A stretch of DNA of 43,347 bases from Thioploca sp. (GTDB lineage Bacteria; Pseudomonadota; Gammaproteobacteria; Beggiatoales; Beggiatoaceae). A program made the position numbers and the translations under genes. The first letter of the stretch is position 1, and every line of letters begins with the position of its first letter. This document shows positions 9,992-26,727 of the stretch, piece after piece. The notes below the pieces were generated by a model. The model was not told the origin of the DNA and ran no database searches. It saw nothing but the letters and a program-made list of their open reading frames with translations. The stretch spans positions 1 to 43,347 of the forward strand of contig DAOUSR010000006.1 of assembly GCA_030627125.1 (NCBI GenBank), in the 5' to 3' direction.

Positions 9992-12487
9992 ATGTTAAAA
10001 CAAATGGTTTATCTAAGTCATCCCATCGTAAAAAATCTAAGTCGAGCAATTTTTAATCTGTTCTCTCCTTTTTATGAGATAAGCATCTTAATATTAATAA
10101 GTTACTCAGTAAATGCAGAAATAATTACCGATGGCACGCTTGGTATTAATGTCAATTTACCTGGCCCAGATTTCCAAATTACCTCCGATTTTGGTCAACA
10201 ACACGGCAACAATTTATTTCATAGTTTTCAAGATTTTAATTTACAAAGTCATGAATCTGCAACTTTTTCTGGCTCCAATAACATTGATAATATTATAAGT
10301 CGGGTAACTGGTGCCAATCCTTCCAATATTGATGGACTCATTCGCTCTACAATTCCTAATGCTGATATGTATTTTTTAAATCCACATGGGATTATATTTG
10401 GCCCCAATGCTAAATTAGATATACAAGGCAGCTTTCATGCTAGTACGGCAGATTATTTGCGATTAGGTACAGAACAATTTTATGTTGATTTAGCCAAAGA
10501 CAGCTCATTAAGTATTGCTCCAGTTGCAGCTTTTGGGTTCCTAACTAATTCACCTAAATCTATTACGACTCAAGATAGTAATCTCTCGGTACCTTATGGC
10601 CAAACTTTATCTTTGATTGGTGGAGACTTAGAGCTAAATGGCCAATCTGAAATTATATATGATGACAAGATGGCACTATCCGCAAATTCATTTCTATCAG
10701 CTCAAGGAGGACGTATAAATTTAGCCAGTATTGCTGCAAAAGGTGAAGTTATTTCTGGTACAACTGGGTTAGAATTGAATGCAAGAGGAAGTAAAATTAC
10801 ACTGAATAATACTCTGCTTGATGTTAGTGGTACTGGTGGTGGCAGTATTTTTATTCGTGGAGAACAATTTGTAATGAATAACTCTACTTTACAAGCTAAT
10901 ACATTAGCAGAGCAAAATGGTCAAGTAATTGATATACAATTTAATAAAGAGATTAATATTAGTGGCACACATGGTAAATCTGCTATATCCACTAAAACTT
11001 TCAGCAATGGTAATGCTGGTAATATAACCATTCATACTCCTATTTTGAATATTGATAAAGTTGATGTCCAAACCAATAGTTATGGTAACGGCAATGCTGG
11101 CAATGTCGATATTAAAACAGTAACTATGACCCTTACCGAAGGTGGGGAAATTGTCAGTGATAGTTTTAGTAGTGGTAATGGTGGAGAATTAAATATTACC
11201 GCAACAGAATCATTATCAATTGTGGATAAGAGGATTTTTTTTACTATAGAACAAGCTGATTTTACTAGTCAGATTGGTTCCGGTGCTATAAAAGAAGGTA
11301 ATGGAGGGCAAGTTATAATTAATACTGGTGATTTAATTGTAGATGGCTCTGCGATTGCATCAAATAGTCATGTTAGCGGTGATGCTGGGGAAATTATGAT
11401 TAACGCTGATTCTATTGCATTGGTTAATGGCGGTTTTATTTCAGCAAATACAATGAGTAAATCTTCTGGTCAAGGTGGTAATATAAGCCTAAAGGTAAAA
11501 GAAAAAATTTATCTTACTGGTTTTCGTTTAGGGATACTTGCTACTACAACTGATATATTTGAAAATACTCCAAGTGCTGTTTCCTCAATAACTTTTGGCA
11601 CTGGAGATGCTGGTAGTATAGATGTATTTACCAAAGAATTAATGTTAGATAATAACGCTGTGATTGGTGCTGCAACTGGAGGTATAGGCAATGCTGGTAA
11701 TATAAGTATTAACGTAGATAATTTATATTTAAGCAATGGAGGGTTAATTACCAATAGTAGTGGTGGGATTATTGGTGGACAAGTATTTTTAGGTTTTGGC
11801 TCTGGTGGCACGCTTAAAATTAATGCCAACAATGAAATTATTATAACAGGGCAAGGGGCTTATTCAGCAAGTAGTTTATCGACAAATACTTTAGTTTCTG
11901 CTCATGGTGGAGATATCGAAGTACAAACAAATAATTTAACCCTTACTGATGGAGCAACCATTTCTGCTAATAGTTTAGGCATTGGTAATGCTGGTACATT
12001 GGATATTAAAGCTAATAATATTAATTTGCTAGAAGGTGGTAATATCACAACTTCTGCCACTAATGCTGCTGGTGGGAATATTGCTGTGAACAGTGCCAAT
12101 TTACTATTTTTGCGAGATGGACAGATTACTACGAGTGTTGGTATTGGTGCTGGTAAAGGTGGTGATATTACGATAACTAATCCTATTTTTGTGATTATGG
12201 ATGGAGGCAAAATTAAAGCTCAAGCTGATGCTGGACAAGGAGGCAATATAGATATTAAATCTAATCAATTTATAGCTTCTCCAGATAGCTTGATAAGTGC
12301 ATCTTCCAGATTAGGGATTGATGGACAGATCAAAATTGAATCACCAGATATGGATATGGAAGGATTTCTAATTGTATTATCGGGAGAGTTTGTGGAAGCT
12401 AATATCAAAGGTTGTAATACTAAAGATATTGAAAATAGTTTTAAATTTATTCCTAGGCATAGAGTAGTACCATTTGGAGCTTTCTAG
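9992..12487 (+). CDS. Two-partner-secretion filamentous haemagglutinin-like adhesin (TpsA)
   Basis: 831 residues. An extended signal segment (about 1-44, hydrophobic ISILILISYSVNA) is followed by a haemagglutination-activity/TPS domain (about 45-155). That domain has LGINVNLPGPDFQI, NLFHSFQDFNLQ, SATFSG, ISRVTGANPSNIDGLI and ADMYFLNPHGIIFGPNAKLD. The remainder is a long right-handed beta-helix of irregular repeats (GNAGNI, GGxIxxN, GxGGNIxI). The last 25 residues, with GCNTKD and a basic RHRVVPFGAF, resemble the C-terminal tail of cyanobacterial-type haemagglutinin proteins (C...SSF...GRGGLP). TpsA proteins are exported to the cell surface by a TpsB/Omp85 pore, which is absent from this window. 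No CdiA-like toxin tip is seen. It probably acts as a surface adhesin or sheath protein. Confidence 0.88.
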   Translation: MLKQMVYLSHPIVKNLSRAIFNLFSPFYEISILILISYSVNAEIITDGTLGINVNLPGPDFQITSDFGQQHGNNLFHSFQDFNLQSHESATFSGSNNIDNIISRVTGANPSNIDGLIRSTIPNADMYFLNPHGIIFGPNAKLDIQGSFHASTADYLRLGTEQFYVDLAKDSSLSIAPVAAFGFLTNSPKSITTQDSNLSVPYGQTLSLIGGDLELNGQSEIIYDDKMALSANSFLSAQGGRINLASIAAKGEVISGTTGLELNARGSKITLNNTLLDVSGTGGGSIFIRGEQFVMNNSTLQANTLAEQNGQVIDIQFNKEINISGTHGKSAISTKTFSNGNAGNITIHTPILNIDKVDVQTNSYGNGNAGNVDIKTVTMTLTEGGEIVSDSFSSGNGGELNITATESLSIVDKRIFFTIEQADFTSQIGSGAIKEGNGGQVIINTGDLIVDGSAIASNSHVSGDAGEIMINADSIALVNGGFISANTMSKSSGQGGNISLKVKEKIYLTGFRLGILATTTDIFENTPSAVSSITFGTGDAGSIDVFTKELMLDNNAVIGAATGGIGNAGNISINVDNLYLSNGGLITNSSGGIIGGQVFLGFGSGGTLKINANNEIIITGQGAYSASSLSTNTLVSAHGGDIEVQTNNLTLTDGATISANSLGIGNAGTLDIKANNINLLEGGNITTSATNAAGGNIAVNSANLLFLRDGQITTSVGIGAGKGGDITITNPIFVIMDGGKIKAQADAGQGGNIDIKSNQFIASPDSLISASSRLGIDGQIKIESPDMDMEGFLIVLSGEFVEANIKGCNTKDIENSFKFIPRHRVVPFGAF

Positions 12488-17380: not shown

Positions 17381-20300
17381 TTACCCAGCAGCCAAAGCAC
17401 TATCAATCAAATCCAATAACTCTGTTTCCTGATAAGGTTTAGTCAAATAAGCATTTACCCCGGCAGATTTAGCCTGCTTCTTATGTTTTTCTGTGGTTCG
17501 AGAAGTTATCATAAAAATCGGTAAATTCTGAGTTGCTTGATTAGCCCGCACATGAGCTGTCAATTCCAAACCATTCATACGCGGCATTTCCATATCTACT
17601 AACATAACATTTGGATGAGTTTGGTTCATTACTTCAATTGCTTCCACTCCATCTTTAGCTAATAAAACGTTAAATCCAGCATCCTCAACCATCAATGATA
17701 AAGATTTCCGTACACTTAAAGAATCGTCCACAATCATAATATAAGGAATATTAGAAACCACCTCTTCAGCAGTGTCTTGTGTTGCCAATGGACGCATGGT
17801 GGCTTTAGCTGGAGAACGCAACAATTCTGGCACATCTAACAATGGCACTAAACTACCATCACCAAGAATACTAGCCCCAGACACACCACGCAAGTTCTTA
17901 ACATAATTACCCATGTTTTTCATAACCAAATCATGAGTATCCAATAATTCATCTACTACTACTGCTGTGATACCAGTTTCTTCATGTACTAAAATAATAG
18001 GCCGTTCTTCTTGTTCATCAATTACTTCCTTATCGCCTTTGACATGCAATAAATCAGCTAATGCTCTTAACGCATATACATCTTTACCTATCTTCAGGCT
18101 AATTTCTTCTCCAACTTTATAAAATTCAGATATTCCAGCTGCTAAAGCTCGTTCTAAAGTGTTACTAGGAATCCCAAATCGAAAATTTCCTATTCGTATC
18201 AACAATACATGTACAGTCACCAAAGTCATGGGTAATTTAATTAATATGGTGGTACCTTTTCCAGTTTCTGATACTAAATCTAGCGTACCTTTCATGTTCC
18301 GAATGCTAGTATGCACCACATCCATACCAACTCCACGCCCTGACATTTGCGTTACTCCAGATTTAGTCGAAAACCCCGACATCAAAATTAGCCGGGATAA
18401 TTCTCTCTCAGATAATTCTTGTTCTTCGGTGATTAAACCTCGCTGAATAGCAGCATAACGAATATTAGTATAATTTAAGCCTTGACCATCATCTTGACAT
18501 TTTACTACAATATTATTACCTTCCCGATAGAAACTCAGTTTGATAATACCAGTTTCTGGTTTACCCAACATAACTCTTTCATCGGCCGTTTCTAAACCGT
18601 GATCAATAGAATTTCGCAAAATATGCTGCAATGGATCGCCTAAATTATTTACTACATCGCTATCCATCAAAATATCAGTACCAACAACTTCCAATTCAGC
18701 TTTTTTCCCAGTAGATCGACAGGTTTGCCGGACGTTGCGTTGTAACTTGGATAACAAATTACTAGCTGGTACCATACGAGTTGTCATAATCGAGGTCTGA
18801 AATTCTTTACTCAAGCGTCCCTGCCGAATAAACATCGTATCCAAATCTACTAAATCTTCTTGAATTGACAGGCTTAACTCCCGATTATCGGCAATTGATT
18901 CGATAAAGCTATGAGCTACACTATGCAGTTCATTATATTCTTCAAATTCCAATGGATCAAAATTTTCATCATCTTTATTAACTTCATTCTGGGTATTTCC
19001 CATCCCAGTTACACCACGTATATCAACTAAGTTCTCTAATTCAAAGGTTTTTTCATGAAGAACTAAATCTTGTTCGGTTAATAATCGAGTACTTTGGATA
19101 ACATGTTTCATTCGTTCTTGAATCTGTCCTAACGAAATAGACAATTCTCCTACTAACCGCATTAAATCATCAACTGTTTTGGTTGGAACTCGTAAAAATT
19201 GCTCTACGTCTCCAGTAACAGCCTTCTTAACCGGTGTTTTACTTTCAGTCTTAGATTCTGAAGTAGTTGTAACAGTTGGTGTTTCTACTATTTTGGCCGG
19301 AGCTGGTGGTGCGTCTAGTTTACCCTTGTCAATTCGATTTGCCCAATCTAAAACTGACTGTAATACTCGCAAAGATTGTTCTGGAGCATCATCTTGACCA
19401 AGCAAAAAATCAACCATCATTTCGATACAATCGGCTGCTTCCACCATGGTATCGGTTAATTCTTTTGGTGGTGTAACTCTATGTTTGGCTAGATATTCTA
19501 AAGTATCTTCCAAATGATGTCCCATACTAGCAACACCTTTGATACCAATTATATTAGACGAACCTTTTAGAGTGTGAGCAAGTCGTTGAGCTCGTTCAAT
19601 TTCAGATACATCTGCTCCTTGAATAATATTTTGAATTGCTTCGGAAAATTCCTGTGCATGTTGGGGAGTTTCTTGTAAATAAGCTTCTAATAATTCAGGA
19701 TTTATATCTTCTGGAATATTTAACGCTACATCTTCTGGGGTAGCTTGAATTTGCCGCTTAGAGGCTTCATCTTCTTCATCTTCATCAACACTCGAACCAG
19801 CCATTAGCTGAGTTGCTAAAGCCTTAGCTGCTTCATCAGTCAAAGGTTGTTGCCAAGCAGATAATCTAAAATGATTTACTAAAGGTAACACTCCAGTTGT
19901 TGGAGCAGTAAAATAACCTAATAATACGTTAGCCCAACCTTCTAATACTGATTTGGCAGTAATCCGCTTAGATAATTCTAACGTACTGATAGCAATAACA
20001 TTATCAATTATAAAAGTACAGACAGTTTGTAATCCGTCTAATCCTACCATTTCAGCTGCAACATTTAGACGTTGTACTTGCTCAGTATAGTTTTCTACCG
20101 CTTCCATATTATCAGAAGTCATAATTCGTTCAAGTTCTTTAGCTAAATCATCTTTAGCAAATTCAAGCTCTCCGGTTAGAATCTCTATAACTTCTTCATT
20201 ACCTAGTGAAATATTTTCATTTATTGGTATATCAAGTGGAGTTAAAGCCTCAGTAGAAGCGGTACTAACTATTGAAGGAATTTCTTGGACAATTTCTGCT

Positions 20301-22972
20301 TCAGCTTGAACTGGTATTTCATCAGTAGTTGTAGGAGTAGTTAATAAAATTAATAACTTATCCCCAGCATCTGATTCCAACGGATTTGGCCAGACCGGTT
20401 CTTGCAAAAAGCTTATTAGTTCAGCAGCACTGGTTGCCGGAGTAGTTAAGTATCCCAATACCTTTGCCGGCCAAGCGATGAAATTAGGTTGGCTAGCAAG
20501 TTTATTTTCCTGTTGGCTAGCAAGCATCAAATTATCATTGATGAAAGTGCAAACTTCCTGCAAACCAACCAGATTAGCCATTTCGGCCACATCCCAAATT
20601 TCTTGTACTTTATTTGTATATTCTTCAATTGCTTCTAACAAAACTGGATTATCATTTCCCATAGACATACATACCTCAAGAGCGGCTGATAACCCCTCGG
20701 TTAAGTCAACAATCTGGCTACGCACTAATTCCAATACATCTGGTGCTGCCAATTCAATAGTGGTTGGTATTAAATGCTGCTTTAACTTCGCAACATCTTC
20801 TGGTGGTGTCGGCCATTGCTGTAAATGACTTAATAAAGCTTCTATACCTTGGTTTGGAGTTTGTAAGTAGGTTATCACTAACTCCGGCCAAGCTAATAAT
20901 AATTCCCGATAATTACTTCTTATTTCCGTTGATTGTCCACAAAGCTCCATCAAATTATTATTAATCAATGTGCAAATATCTTGTAAACCAATCAAATTAG
21001 CCATTTCACAAATATCCCAGATTGACTGGACATATTCAGTATAGCTTGAAACAGATAATAGTAAATCTTCGCCTTCTGCAGTAATTATTTGGTTAGCTGT
21101 AGTTGCTAGTTCATCATTAAGGTCAATTATTTGGCCAACTATTAACTCAATGATTCCTGTTTCTGCTAAGAAAATTTCTTCAACTTGGTCTGCTGGCTCA
21201 ATAAATTTTTCAATAGAGGCTGGTAGTTCAGAACTAGGTATTAATTTGGCTAATAAATCTATTGCTAATGGAACTGGCCATAATTCATTTTGTAAATGCT
21301 TGATTAATGGTTGAGTTTGAAGCGCTGGTATTTGCAAATAAGCCATTGTCAACTTAGGCCAAGCTACTAATATATCCTGAGTTTTGCTTCTTTCTGTCAG
21401 TGATAAACTTCCCAGCGTCATCACATTTTCATTTATAAAAGTGCAAACTTCTTGCAAACCAACTAAATTAGCCATTTCTGCGGCATCCCAAACTGATTGC
21501 ACTAATTCAGTATAGTCTGAAACAGCCATTAATAATTCATCATCTTCAGCAGTTATTAATTTGGTTAAAGTTGATGCTAATTCATCTTCAATATCAATTA
21601 ATTGACCAACTAATAATTCAATAATATCTTCGCTTGCTAAAATTATTGGTGGAATTTCTGGTTCAATAGGTTCTAAGTTATTTGGAATAATTATTTCATC
21701 TGATAAATTTTCAATAGTAGGGATTTTTATAGCAGATATTTCAGTTTGAGAATCAACAATTTCTGCTTCCAAATCATCAAATAAAATAGATTCATCAATA
21801 TCTGCTATAGGTTCTTCTTCAATCACTTCTGCTAGTTCTTCTGCAATTTTTGGCATTGCTAAATCACCTTGAAATTCTAAGTTATCTAAAATTATCTCCT
21901 GTGATGCTTCTAAAGTTAAATTTTCAGTTTCGGAATAAATTGAATCTTCTATATTTCCTTCTATACCATTTTCAAATGTTTCCATAGTTGGAATTTCTAT
22001 ATCTGTTATATCATTAAAACTTTCTCCATCAATATCATCTATAGGAAATTCATCGTCAATATTTTCTATAATTTCGTCTTTATCAAAATCTTTTTCCATA
22101 TCTGTCACCAATGGTTTCATATCATCACTGCTCATTATATCATCATCAACATCAATTGTACCAATACTACTCATAACAGATAACATCGGCAATTCTGAGT
22201 TAGAATTAAATGTATATTTAGAAGTACCAGATATTAACGCTTCAATATCAGAAGCTATATCTAAACTTCCCGCAATAAGTGGTAAATCATCATTGATTAA
22301 AGCTGTAATATCTAAAATTTCAGATTCATTTAATACGTGGCTATATAAAGTGGATTCAGTATCAGATGTAATTATTTTATTATCACAATTAATCGCTTGC
22401 TCAATTTGCTTAGATGATAATTCAGATGCTATATCCTGAATAGAATTTTCTTGGATAGAATTTTTTTGGTCAATTGATGGTTTAACATATTTAGTTTTTA
22501 TAATTCTAGTAGCATAATCCTTTATAAGCTGTACTGATATATAATTTGCATGTTTTTTTGAGGCTGAAATTGGCCAATTATCTTGACGAATATATGCGAC
22601 TATATCTTTGGTTCCTAACTCTGGTGATAGTAAATATTCTAGTATTAATTGTGGCCATAAATTTAATTGTTCATATAATAGTTTTTTTTCTGCTTTTGAT
22701 TTAAAACTAAACTCAAATATATTATCATTAATAAAAGTACAAATCTCACAAAAACCATTTAAACCTAAATCATTAGAGAATTCCCATAATTCTTGTAGAG
22801 TATCAGTATAATTTTCAACAGATTCTAAAAATTTAGACTCAATAATATCAAGGGCCATAATAATATCTAAATTAGTTGTCAAATCATCTTTTTTTTCTAT
22901 AATTTTATCAGATAAAAGAGTTAGTTGTGGATATTTATCAAAAGAAGACCGTGCTGCAATATTTTTTTGCAT
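17381..22972 (-). CDS. ChpA/PilL-type chemosensory hybrid histidine kinase
   Basis: 1863 residues; ATG 22972 follows a strong AAGGAG. Five degenerate Hpt-like repeats begin near residues 45, 451, 606, 745 and 927. A D/E-rich linker of about 240 residues separates the first from the second. One true Hpt follows (about 1085-1185, AHTLKGSSN, His1133). Next come the CheA dimerisation region (FLRVPTKTVDDLMRLVGELS, about 1257) and the ATPase (HILRNSIDHGLE, GRGVGMDVV, about 1400-1560). A CheW-like domain (about 1575-1720) and a C-terminal receiver with Asp1793 in MLVDMEMPRMNG and LTKPY complete it. ChpA-like kinases control twitching motility and cAMP in Pseudomonas. In the five repeats the phosphorylatable His is replaced by Trp (four times) or Asn. 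No pilG, pilH, pilI or pilJ genes adjoin it. It is read away from lpxB. Confidence 0.9.
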   Translation of the reverse strand: MQKNIAARSSFDKYPQLTLLSDKIIEKKDDLTTNLDIIMALDIIESKFLESVENYTDTLQELWEFSNDLGLNGFCEICTFINDNIFEFSFKSKAEKKLLYEQLNLWPQLILEYLLSPELGTKDIVAYIRQDNWPISASKKHANYISVQLIKDYATRIIKTKYVKPSIDQKNSIQENSIQDIASELSSKQIEQAINCDNKIITSDTESTLYSHVLNESEILDITALINDDLPLIAGSLDIASDIEALISGTSKYTFNSNSELPMLSVMSSIGTIDVDDDIMSSDDMKPLVTDMEKDFDKDEIIENIDDEFPIDDIDGESFNDITDIEIPTMETFENGIEGNIEDSIYSETENLTLEASQEIILDNLEFQGDLAMPKIAEELAEVIEEEPIADIDESILFDDLEAEIVDSQTEISAIKIPTIENLSDEIIIPNNLEPIEPEIPPIILASEDIIELLVGQLIDIEDELASTLTKLITAEDDELLMAVSDYTELVQSVWDAAEMANLVGLQEVCTFINENVMTLGSLSLTERSKTQDILVAWPKLTMAYLQIPALQTQPLIKHLQNELWPVPLAIDLLAKLIPSSELPASIEKFIEPADQVEEIFLAETGIIELIVGQIIDLNDELATTANQIITAEGEDLLLSVSSYTEYVQSIWDICEMANLIGLQDICTLINNNLMELCGQSTEIRSNYRELLLAWPELVITYLQTPNQGIEALLSHLQQWPTPPEDVAKLKQHLIPTTIELAAPDVLELVRSQIVDLTEGLSAALEVCMSMGNDNPVLLEAIEEYTNKVQEIWDVAEMANLVGLQEVCTFINDNLMLASQQENKLASQPNFIAWPAKVLGYLTTPATSAAELISFLQEPVWPNPLESDAGDKLLILLTTPTTTDEIPVQAEAEIVQEIPSIVSTASTEALTPLDIPINENISLGNEEVIEILTGELEFAKDDLAKELERIMTSDNMEAVENYTEQVQRLNVAAEMVGLDGLQTVCTFIIDNVIAISTLELSKRITAKSVLEGWANVLLGYFTAPTTGVLPLVNHFRLSAWQQPLTDEAAKALATQLMAGSSVDEDEEDEASKRQIQATPEDVALNIPEDINPELLEAYLQETPQHAQEFSEAIQNIIQGADVSEIERAQRLAHTLKGSSNIIGIKGVASMGHHLEDTLEYLAKHRVTPPKELTDTMVEAADCIEMMVDFLLGQDDAPEQSLRVLQSVLDWANRIDKGKLDAPPAPAKIVETPTVTTTSESKTESKTPVKKAVTGDVEQFLRVPTKTVDDLMRLVGELSISLGQIQERMKHVIQSTRLLTEQDLVLHEKTFELENLVDIRGVTGMGNTQNEVNKDDENFDPLEFEEYNELHSVAHSFIESIADNRELSLSIQEDLVDLDTMFIRQGRLSKEFQTSIMTTRMVPASNLLSKLQRNVRQTCRSTGKKAELEVVGTDILMDSDVVNNLGDPLQHILRNSIDHGLETADERVMLGKPETGIIKLSFYREGNNIVVKCQDDGQGLNYTNIRYAAIQRGLITEEQELSERELSRLILMSGFSTKSGVTQMSGRGVGMDVVHTSIRNMKGTLDLVSETGKGTTILIKLPMTLVTVHVLLIRIGNFRFGIPSNTLERALAAGISEFYKVGEEISLKIGKDVYALRALADLLHVKGDKEVIDEQEERPIILVHEETGITAVVVDELLDTHDLVMKNMGNYVKNLRGVSGASILGDGSLVPLLDVPELLRSPAKATMRPLATQDTAEEVVSNIPYIMIVDDSLSVRKSLSLMVEDAGFNVLLAKDGVEAIEVMNQTHPNVMLVDMEMPRMNGLELTAHVRANQATQNLPIFMITSRTTEKHKKQAKSAGVNAYLTKPYQETELLDLIDSALAAG

Positions 22973-24500: not shown

Positions 24501-24700
24501 ATCTTGGAAAGTAGCAAAATCAGTTTCCATTCTTTTATAGTTATGATAGATATTGATTAATGTCAATGGTAGTATCAGGTTTATAGTATATTATTAAACT
24601 CTTATTTAGCAGTTAAAAATGAAATTTCCATATCAAATATATCCACTCACCAACTGTTCACCTTTGATACATAAACAAGAACACGTTAAAGGAACAAATC

Positions 24701-26227
24701 TTGAAGAATTTTTTTCACAAACCTATTAAATATACGTATTTATACATAGATGCATGGTTTAATTTTGCTTTTGGTACTAAAAATAATCCTCTATATCACC
24801 TCGGTTCATTAGCTTTCTTTATGCTATGGATAGTATTAATTAGCGGTCTGTATATTTTTATAATATTTGACACTAGTATAACAGGGGCTTTTCAATCGGT
24901 TGAGTATATGACCAATGAGCAATGGTATCTCGGCGGAGTTATGCGAAGTTTACATCGTTATGCTTCAGATGCCACGCTAGTTGTGGTATTGCTACATATA
25001 ATACGGGAATTTTCCTTAGATCGTTATCGAGGATTTCGTTGGTTTTCATGGTTTACCGGCACTCCCAATCTATGGTTAATAGTCTTATTAGGTATTTCTG
25101 GTTATTGGTTGGTATGGGATCAATTAGCCCAATACGTTGCCATCGGTTCCTCCCAATTATTAGATGCGTTACCCATATTTTCTGGGGCTATGAGTCGCAA
25201 TTTTTTAGTTGGCAACCTAAGTGATAGATTTTTTACTCTAATGGCTTTTGTGCATTTATTAGGGTTGCCGGTAATGCTGGTATTTGGTTTGTGGATTCAC
25301 GTCAAAAGATTAACCAAAGTCGAAGTATTTGTACCAAAAACTTTAGCGATTGGTAGTTTTTTAGCCTTGTTAATATTATCTTTGGTGAAACCAGCAATCA
25401 GTCATGCTCAAGCTGATCTAACCATTATACCTACATTATTAAATTTAGATTGGTATTATTTGAATGTTTATCCTCTGTTAGATTATTTTACAGCAGGTGA
25501 AACCTGGATTCTAACTATAGGAATATCAACATTATTAATGCTGATGCCTTGGCTTCCAATCAAGCGTACTCCACCAGCAGTTGTGGTTGACTTAAATAAC
25601 TGTAATGGTTGTTCTCAGTGTTTTGATGATTGTCCATTTGATGCAATTTCGATGCAAGCTCGTACTGATGGTGCTAGATGGAAAATGGAACCAGTGGTCG
25701 ATCCTAATCTTTGTGCTGCTTGTGGTATTTGTGTAGGCTCTTGTCCATATTCTAATCCATCTCGCCGCTCGGAAGTTAAGCTTGCTACCGGAATTGATTT
25801 ACCAGAACAACCAATTCATCAAATTCGTACTGCTACTAAAACTGCATTGACAGAACTTAGTTCTTCTAAAGTAAAGATATTAATATTTGGTTGCAGTCAT
25901 GGAGTTAATTTAACAGAAATTAATGCTCCAGATGTTGCAATTATCACATTGCCTTGCACTGGTATGTTACCGCCAGCCTTTATTGATTACACTTTGCAAC
26001 GTGGTGCTGATGGAGTATTGATTTCAGGTTGCCGTTCTCAAGATTGCTATTATCGGTTTGGTAATCATTGGTTGGAACAGCGTATTAAAGGTGATAGAAC
26101 TCCAATTTTGGCTAAACGAGTTAATAGAGAGAAATTTGATTTTGTTGGTTATGCAGAGACTGACGAAGCTCAATTATTGCAAAATATTGCTACTATTCGC
26201 CAACGAATTACTGAGGGTCAAGGATGA
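24701..26227 (+). CDS. Cytochrome b - 2[4Fe-4S] ferredoxin - MvhD-like fusion
   Basis: 508 residues in three modules. Residues 30-290 form a cytochrome b6-like membrane domain with candidate haem ligands His85/His99 (RSLHRYASD...LLH) and His185/His200 (FVHLLGLP...WIH); the 14- and 15-residue spacings are those of cytochrome b6. Residues 300-350 carry two 4Fe-4S motifs: Cys301/304/307/311 and Cys338/341/344/348. Residues 385-500 resemble the MvhD/hydrogenase iron-sulfur delta subunit. They keep LPCTG (Cys419) and GCRSQDC (Cys444, Cys449), but the first motif has only Cys398 (FGCSHG). TTG 24701 follows AAAGGA at seven bases. The next gene overlaps by ATGA. It probably moves electrons between a soluble reductase, such as an Hdr-like complex, and the quinone pool. 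Partner and direction are unknown. Confidence 0.8.
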   Translation: MKNFFHKPIKYTYLYIDAWFNFAFGTKNNPLYHLGSLAFFMLWIVLISGLYIFIIFDTSITGAFQSVEYMTNEQWYLGGVMRSLHRYASDATLVVVLLHIIREFSLDRYRGFRWFSWFTGTPNLWLIVLLGISGYWLVWDQLAQYVAIGSSQLLDALPIFSGAMSRNFLVGNLSDRFFTLMAFVHLLGLPVMLVFGLWIHVKRLTKVEVFVPKTLAIGSFLALLILSLVKPAISHAQADLTIIPTLLNLDWYYLNVYPLLDYFTAGETWILTIGISTLLMLMPWLPIKRTPPAVVVDLNNCNGCSQCFDDCPFDAISMQARTDGARWKMEPVVDPNLCAACGICVGSCPYSNPSRRSEVKLATGIDLPEQPIHQIRTATKTALTELSSSKVKILIFGCSHGVNLTEINAPDVAIITLPCTGMLPPAFIDYTLQRGADGVLISGCRSQDCYYRFGNHWLEQRIKGDRTPILAKRVNREKFDFVGYAETDEAQLLQNIATIRQRITEGQG

Positions 26228-26727
26228 AAACCGGATTACGTTATATTTTACAAATAGTTAACTATTCAATATTTATGTTAATTATTTGGTATTTTTCCGT
26301 AGCTCCAGCCTATAATCACTTAGCACCTTGCCAAGCTGTGATCGTATTAGCTTTCGGTCATGCTGGACAGCCAATATCAGAATGTAGGAAAAGAACTCCT
26401 GAAGAATTAGCAGCTTTGCCTCCTAATATGCGTAATCCTATGGTTTGTCCTCGGGAACGTTCGCCAATTGAAGTGGAATTGTTGTTAGACGATCAACCAT
26501 TATTTGTTGAAACATTTAGCCCACAAGGTGTTTCTGGAGATTGGGGAGTTGATGTTTATCAAAAGTTTAAAGTTCCTATTGGTCAACATAATCTAAAAAT
26601 GCGGTTGAAGGACAGCGTGCGAGCTAAAGATTTTAATTATGTGCATGAAGTTGATATGGAGTTAATAGCAGCCCAATTGTTAGTGATAGATTTTCAAGCT
26701 GATAAAGGTGGATTTAACGTTAAGTAG
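26224..26727 (+). CDS. Membrane-anchored protein coupled to the cytochrome b fusion, unknown function
   Basis: 167 residues, overlapping the preceding stop as ATGA, so almost certainly co-translated with the fusion. One N-terminal transmembrane anchor (about 9-27, ILQIVNYSIFMLIIWYF) is followed by a predicted periplasmic domain. That domain has three cysteines (CQAV, ECRKR, MVCPRE) and a beta-rich C-terminal half (VELLLDD, GDWGVDVYQKFKVPIGQH, VHEVDME). I do not recognise a family. It has no CxxCH haem site and no clear lipobox. Its tight coupling suggests an assembly factor or small subunit of the electron-transfer protein. Confidence 0.7.
   Translation: MKTGLRYILQIVNYSIFMLIIWYFSVAPAYNHLAPCQAVIVLAFGHAGQPISECRKRTPEELAALPPNMRNPMVCPRERSPIEVELLLDDQPLFVETFSPQGVSGDWGVDVYQKFKVPIGQHNLKMRLKDSVRAKDFNYVHEVDMELIAAQLLVIDFQADKGGFNVK

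Follow-up and report, generated by a model that had tools for sequence, protein, structure and literature searches.

A cytochrome b/FlpD fusion protein and its membrane-anchored partner co-occur with eNOR-type NO reductases and are candidates for their electron supply

Gene organization at the locus

The window analyzed here is a stretch of 43,347 nucleotides from Thioploca sp. (GenBank assembly GCA_030627125.1, contig DAOUSR010000006.1, positions 1 to 43,347 of the forward strand). It carries two adjacent genes that we call FUS and PAR (Table 1), whose present annotations read "cytochrome b N-terminal domain-containing protein" (FUS) and "hypothetical protein" (PAR). The TTG start of FUS is seen again in the homologues L011 and L047, the latter from a Thioploca MAG and 89% identical. 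PAR begins within the stop of FUS, so that the two genes overlap by ATGA. Pfam recognized in FUS a Cytochrome_B domain (residues 30-203, 3.5e-16), Fer4 (294-351) and FlpD (410-504, 3.9e-15). This agrees with a preliminary description of the locus, in which one polypeptide was said to join a di-haem b6-like domain, two 4Fe-4S clusters and an MvhD-like module. The same description gave the second gene an ATGA overlap, one transmembrane helix and a domain that could not be placed, and the ORF coordinates, the structural model and the empty Pfam and NCBIfam searches bear this out. Full-length FUS is present as a single copy in its own genome. Elsewhere in the window, we noted an ORF of 1863 aa on the reverse strand (17381-22972) and an 831-aa protein with a TPS secretion domain (9992-12487).

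Table 1. Features of the FUS/PAR locus, in window coordinates.
Feature	Position	Strand	Basis
Shine-Dalgarno-like AAAGGA, ahead of the TTG start of FUS	24690..24695	+	read from sequence
FUS, cytochrome b / 2x[4Fe-4S] / FlpD(MvhD) fusion, 508 aa	24701..26227	+	ORF and Pfam
b6-like helices A-D of FUS, residues 30-203, with haem ligands H85, H99, H185, H200	24788..25309	+	Pfam PF00033; conservation
Cytochrome-b C-terminal part of FUS (helix E, ef loop, helix F), residues 212-288	25334..25564	+	hhalign; model
DWYY motif, residues 250-253, at the position of Qo-site PEWY	25448..25459	+	alignment
Two 4Fe-4S ferredoxin motifs, residues 294-351	25580..25753	+	Pfam Fer4; Cys conservation
FlpD/MvhD-like domain with four invariant Cys (398, 419, 444, 449)	25874..26212	+	Pfam FlpD; Cys conservation
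PAR, 167-aa partner with one N-terminal TM helix and a periplasmic beta-sandwich	26224..26727	+	ORF, model, conservation

The membrane domain of FUS

The haem ligands of FUS are invariant among 81 aligned homologues (H85 and H99 in 80/80, H185 and H200 in 81/81), with the spacing of 14 and 15 found in b6. The preliminary description had made its reading depend on the conservation of these histidines, and they are conserved throughout. Its b6-like di-haem part stands, but it overlooked the C-terminal half of the domain. Set against eight bona fide cytochromes b in hhalign, 50 FUS homologues aligned over FUS residues 27-288 with cytochrome b 34-333 (E 4.3e-17). The domain thus aligns with the full-length cytochrome b of bc1: residues 205-288 correspond to its C-terminal part, with helix E, an ef loop of putative Qo type and helix F. 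The alignment pairs 'PADL..VP..L.LDWFYL..YPLL' of FUS with 'PADP..TP.HI.PxWYF.PFYAIL' of cytochrome b. The ef loop of the homologues thus reads xDWFY where cytochrome b has PEWY, and it lines up with PxWY in the bona fide cytochrome b of these genomes; the D, the W and the second Y of this DWYY/DWFY motif are invariant. PF00032 matched only 8 of the 50 homologues (best E 0.0033). An AlphaFold model of a natural FUS-PAR fusion (L090, pLDDT 80) fits bc1 cytochrome b over residues ~29-290, with Z up to 19.

FUS has in common with the cytochrome b of bc1 and b6f complexes the four haem histidines with b6 spacing and helices A-F, and its ef loop has a Qo-like motif. It differs from it by having no helices G/H, by DWFY in place of PEWY, by the added cytosolic Fe-S and FlpD parts, and by a conserved gene neighbourhood that includes neither a Rieske protein nor a c-type cytochrome (c1/f). 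If the topology of FUS is that of cytochrome b, its six helices would leave the Fe-S/FlpD part in the cytoplasm and turn the DWFY loop towards the periplasm.

Iron-sulfur and FlpD parts, and their replacement in relatives

Seven of the eight ferredoxin cysteines are invariant in the 81 homologues and the remaining one, C301, is found in 80/81. An FlpD domain was detected by Pfam in 50/50 FUS homologues scanned. The N-terminal Cys-pair motif of MvhD/FlpD is not present in FUS, where C398 stands alone. As C398, C419, C444 and C449 are all invariant across the 81 homologues, the reduction of the first MvhD motif to one Cys, already pointed out in the preliminary description, is real and general. 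FUS shares its FlpD domain with the MvhD/FlpD proteins of [NiFe] hydrogenase-heterodisulfide reductase complexes, from which it is set apart by this single Cys and by having no link to HdrA (see below).

In some relatives, the cytosolic part is a different one. In L117:1622-3559 (-) and L118:1086-3071 (-), a plant-type [2Fe-2S] ferredoxin (Fer2) and FNR-like FAD/NAD domains are attached to the cytochrome b domain; the L117 gene lies directly downstream of PAR inside an eNOR locus (described below). A third locus, L116, also of the eNOR type, encodes a fusion of the b domain to a flavodoxin-FAD-NAD diflavin reductase. FNR and diflavin heads usually oxidize NAD(P)H. That the b domain is fused to such NAD(P)H-flavin heads is the chief reason why we favour electron entry from the cytosolic side, by analogy also in FUS. 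We also observed that the b parts of FUS and of the diflavin fusion of L116 (L116:2172-4712 (-) and L116:9150-10961 (-)) are identical over 873 nt, the identity stopping at the domain boundary; either a recent gene conversion or an assembly artefact could account for it. L117 and L118 are independent of this issue.

The partner protein PAR

The model of PAR (pLDDT 94.6) consists of one helix and a beta sandwich. Nine residues, H46, C54, C75, R77, R79, G102, D106, G120 and F157, are invariant in 59 homologues, and M69 and H122 are nearly so. Given the invariance of H46, C54 and C75 and the near invariance of M69 and H122, both a disulfide and a metal site would be possible.

Several candidate identities for PAR were rejected. 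A comparison of the 59 members with Pfam at E<=1 gave no match to FixH or any other family, although kinship at the level of the fold is possible. A PDB fold search with the model returned nothing at E<=1e-3. The top VIA match, the luminal domain of HGSNAT (Z 9.2, rmsd 2.9, 94 residues aligned), is a generic sandwich match, and the best hit of a PDB sequence search with the PAR profile, eIF2 subunit 1 (E 0.0027), is not credible. PAR is not a c-type cytochrome either, CxxCH being absent from the protein of the window. Finally, a joint alignment of FUS and PAR scattered the PAR rows, and the pair was modelled on the natural fusion L090, whose alignment included three rows of PAR; the PAR part of this model is of low confidence and the interface is not readable from it.

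Pairing of the two genes

A scan of bacterial genome contigs yielded 358 FUS relatives, from which 80 loci were retained, belonging to Gamma-, Alpha- and Betaproteobacteria and Magnetococcales. PAR lies beside FUS in 69 of the 77 judgeable loci, is fused to it in 3 and is absent in 5; three further loci stop at a contig end and are outside this count. The two genes are therefore adjacent or fused in 72/77 loci, and the frequent absence of the partner, which the preliminary description had named as a finding against its reading, did not occur. In the three fusions (L072, L078 and L090), PAR is joined to the C terminus of FUS, an arrangement that fits the predicted topology, as PAR is a helix followed by a soluble domain. 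All five loci devoid of PAR (L014, L021, L027, L028 and L036) are also devoid of oxidase genes nearby. Four of these five share a neighbourhood of housekeeping-looking genes. In Thioalkalivibrio denitrificans ALJD, a second full FUS paralogue was found downstream of PAR (L069:12247-13785).

An eNOR-type oxidase is encoded around the pair

In most homologous loci with enough sequence, the gene order COX2(CuA) - COX1a(Gln) - CyoE - SCO - FUS - PAR is conserved. A second COX1-like gene, COX1b, often follows PAR, genes for COX15, DUF420 and hemerythrin proteins lie near, and a cytochrome cd1 protein is a recurrent neighbour family. COX1a belongs to the B-family haem-copper subunits I and has, in 45/45 sequences, a Gln where the catalytic Tyr would be; the Gln of the COX1a from the window genome is aligned with Y237 of Thermus thermophilus ba3. 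The CuB and haem ligands H66, H228, H277, H278, H382 and H384 are kept in 45/45, and COX2 has the CuA motif CNEYCGxxHHxMLGK both in the window genome and in 44 homologues. A Gln replacing the catalytic Tyr has been published as the hallmark of eNOR (PMC8756737), and the ba3-a1 subtype, which corresponds to eNOR, has NO reductase activity according to a secondary report (PMC8879329). On sequence grounds, the associated oxidase is thus assigned to the eNOR type by its Gln, its CuB and haem histidines and its adjacent cupredoxin subunit II. The pair is encoded and co-occurs with this enzyme, while FUS and PAR themselves are not haem-copper proteins.

In the window genome, COX1a and COX2 lie on contig C245 and COX1b on C176, apart from the contig of FUS and PAR. 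The earlier remark that no catalytic subunit is nearby is thus true locally, but does not hold for the genome, where the subunits are found on other contigs.

As a separate observation, COX1b (L040:6457-7851 and relatives; G000:C176:1797-3113 in the window genome) has retained the histidines of helices II and VI as well as the HxH motif. It has neither of the two helix VII CuB histidines, mostly showing I/V-Y for HH, nor the Gln at the catalytic-Tyr position. From these residues, COX1b is probably a haem protein without CuB.

Co-occurrence across genomes

Among 58 relatives, FUS and COX1a are found in the identical seven genomes (7/7), a count that leaves out two COX1a search matches at 26-27% identity, which are different oxidases. 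Of 370 Gammaproteobacteria, 35 have FUS, 36 have COX1a and 34 have both, the COX1a match of G401 being 33% identical and probably a different enzyme. For 397 Pseudomonadota, the corresponding numbers are 20, 20 and 19. FUS and COX1a often lie on different contigs of one genome. Fisher P values for the association range from 3e-9 to 1e-44 and are descriptive, as they ignore shared ancestry. The exceptions, in fragmented assemblies, are FUS without detected eNOR in G378 and G496 and eNOR without FUS in G270 and G461. NirS-family genes, a family that also covers NirN and NirF, were detected in 36/40 FUS-positive versus 11/40 FUS-negative genomes, often on the same contig.

On the other hand, HdrA-type proteins were detected in 21/40 genomes with FUS and 16/40 without it, which is no association, and the tracking with shdr-type partners considered in the preliminary description was not observed. 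Its proposal of a generic adapter is likewise not supported, since the pair follows one enzyme, eNOR, together with nirS. What holds is its broader picture of a membrane electron-transfer unit in which a cytosolic Fe-S/MvhD-like module is joined to a quinone-type cytochrome, as both the pairing and the cofactor ligands are conserved.

Proposed role of FUS and PAR

We are confident that FUS and PAR are a dedicated part of the eNOR system. As the pair is found almost only in genomes with eNOR, it very probably takes part in the electron supply or the assembly of this enzyme rather than acting as a general adapter. We propose that FUS would be a bc1-type cytochrome b that works with neither a Rieske protein nor cytochrome c1 and bears two [4Fe-4S] clusters and FlpD at its cytoplasmic end (n-side). 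A soluble cytosolic reductant would deliver electrons to FlpD, from where they would pass through the [4Fe-4S] clusters to haems bH and bL, and then to the CuA subunit and the active site of eNOR, a transfer involving a quinone bound at the Qo-like site and, in the periplasm, PAR. eNOR would in turn reduce the NO produced by NirS to N2O. To this mechanism, in which we infer the physical complex, the direction of flow, the identity of the donor and the role of PAR, we give about an even chance. A tentative and rather doubtful version would have the Rieske- and c1-less cytochrome b form a supercomplex with eNOR and wire a cytosolic reductant across the membrane to CuA, the FlpD, FNR or diflavin heads having been swapped in evolution, or else run in reverse and use quinol to make a low-potential reductant, at a cost to NO reduction. 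According to a secondary source (PMC8879329), reduced cytochrome c was found to donate electrons to eNOR, so that an extra electron route would not be strictly needed. The five FUS loci lacking PAR and nearby oxidase genes, and the genomes in which FUS or eNOR was detected singly, also weigh against the proposed role.

The main rival, which we consider unlikely, is an assembly role. A parallel can be drawn with CcoG/CcoH (FixG/FixH) of the cbb3 oxidase, where the gene for a membrane polyferredoxin protein is followed, beside the oxidase, by that for a one-helix periplasmic beta-domain protein. The layout of FUS and PAR resembles this one; FUS would keep copper or thiols reduced and PAR, with its invariant H46, C54 and C75 and nearly invariant M69 and H122, would help to deliver or stabilize CuA/CuB during eNOR maturation. 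SCO, CyoE and COX15, amid which the pair sits, are assembly factors, and an assembly role fits them equally well. However, PAR has no FixH match in Pfam, and a cupric reductase needs less machinery than the whole di-haem cytochrome b, the Qo-like loop and the exchangeable NAD(P)H modules found here.

One could also assume, in line with the generic adapter mentioned above, that FUS is an NAD(P)H- or ferredoxin-type quinone reductase serving the general quinone pool, inherited together with eNOR in a denitrification package and having no contact with it. A cytochrome b with a quinone-type site and a cytosolic input domain would suit such a function, and FUS is unlinked to eNOR in many genomes. 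Yet a pool enzyme would be expected beside other terminal reductases too, whereas FUS co-occurs nearly one-to-one with eNOR and not with HdrA, which makes this explanation improbable.

Least probable, and very improbable, is quinol bifurcation. Here quinol would be oxidized at the Qo-like site; one electron would go to eNOR, and the other would travel via bL, bH and the Fe-S/FlpD part to a cytosolic acceptor of low potential, so that reductant for autotrophy would be gained at the cost of NO reduction. In its favour, the Qo-like loop and both haems are conserved, Rieske and c1 are outside the conserved neighbourhood, and many FUS carriers belong to sulfur-oxidizer lineages, which need reverse electron transport. 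Against it, the step from bL to a low-potential n-side acceptor is uphill with respect to redox as well as membrane potential, FNR and diflavin modules usually serve NAD(P)H oxidation, and the Glu of PEWY is Asp in FUS.

Significance

eNOR is a recently recognized and usually misannotated NO reductase, whose product N2O is a greenhouse gas. In the literature that we searched, we found no description of its electron supply in Proteobacteria, nothing relevant on a cytochrome b/MvhD protein in NO reduction and no description of FUS and PAR as eNOR subunits; the primary eNOR paper lay outside this literature and a prior mention is possible. Two proteins annotated so far in generic terms would be added to the eNOR system, and they represent a concrete, genetically testable candidate for its electron supply in Proteobacteria. 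FUS would also illustrate how a bc1-type cytochrome b can be reused with interchangeable cytosolic electron-entry domains. Finally, the pair points to a way in which large sulfur bacteria may reduce NO; how these organisms reduce nitrate has been debated (PMC6052272). We also noted that an eNOR-FUS-PAR operon is carried by a plasmid in Defluviimonas sp. SAOS-178_SWC (NZ_CP156080.1, 14059-20598; L133).
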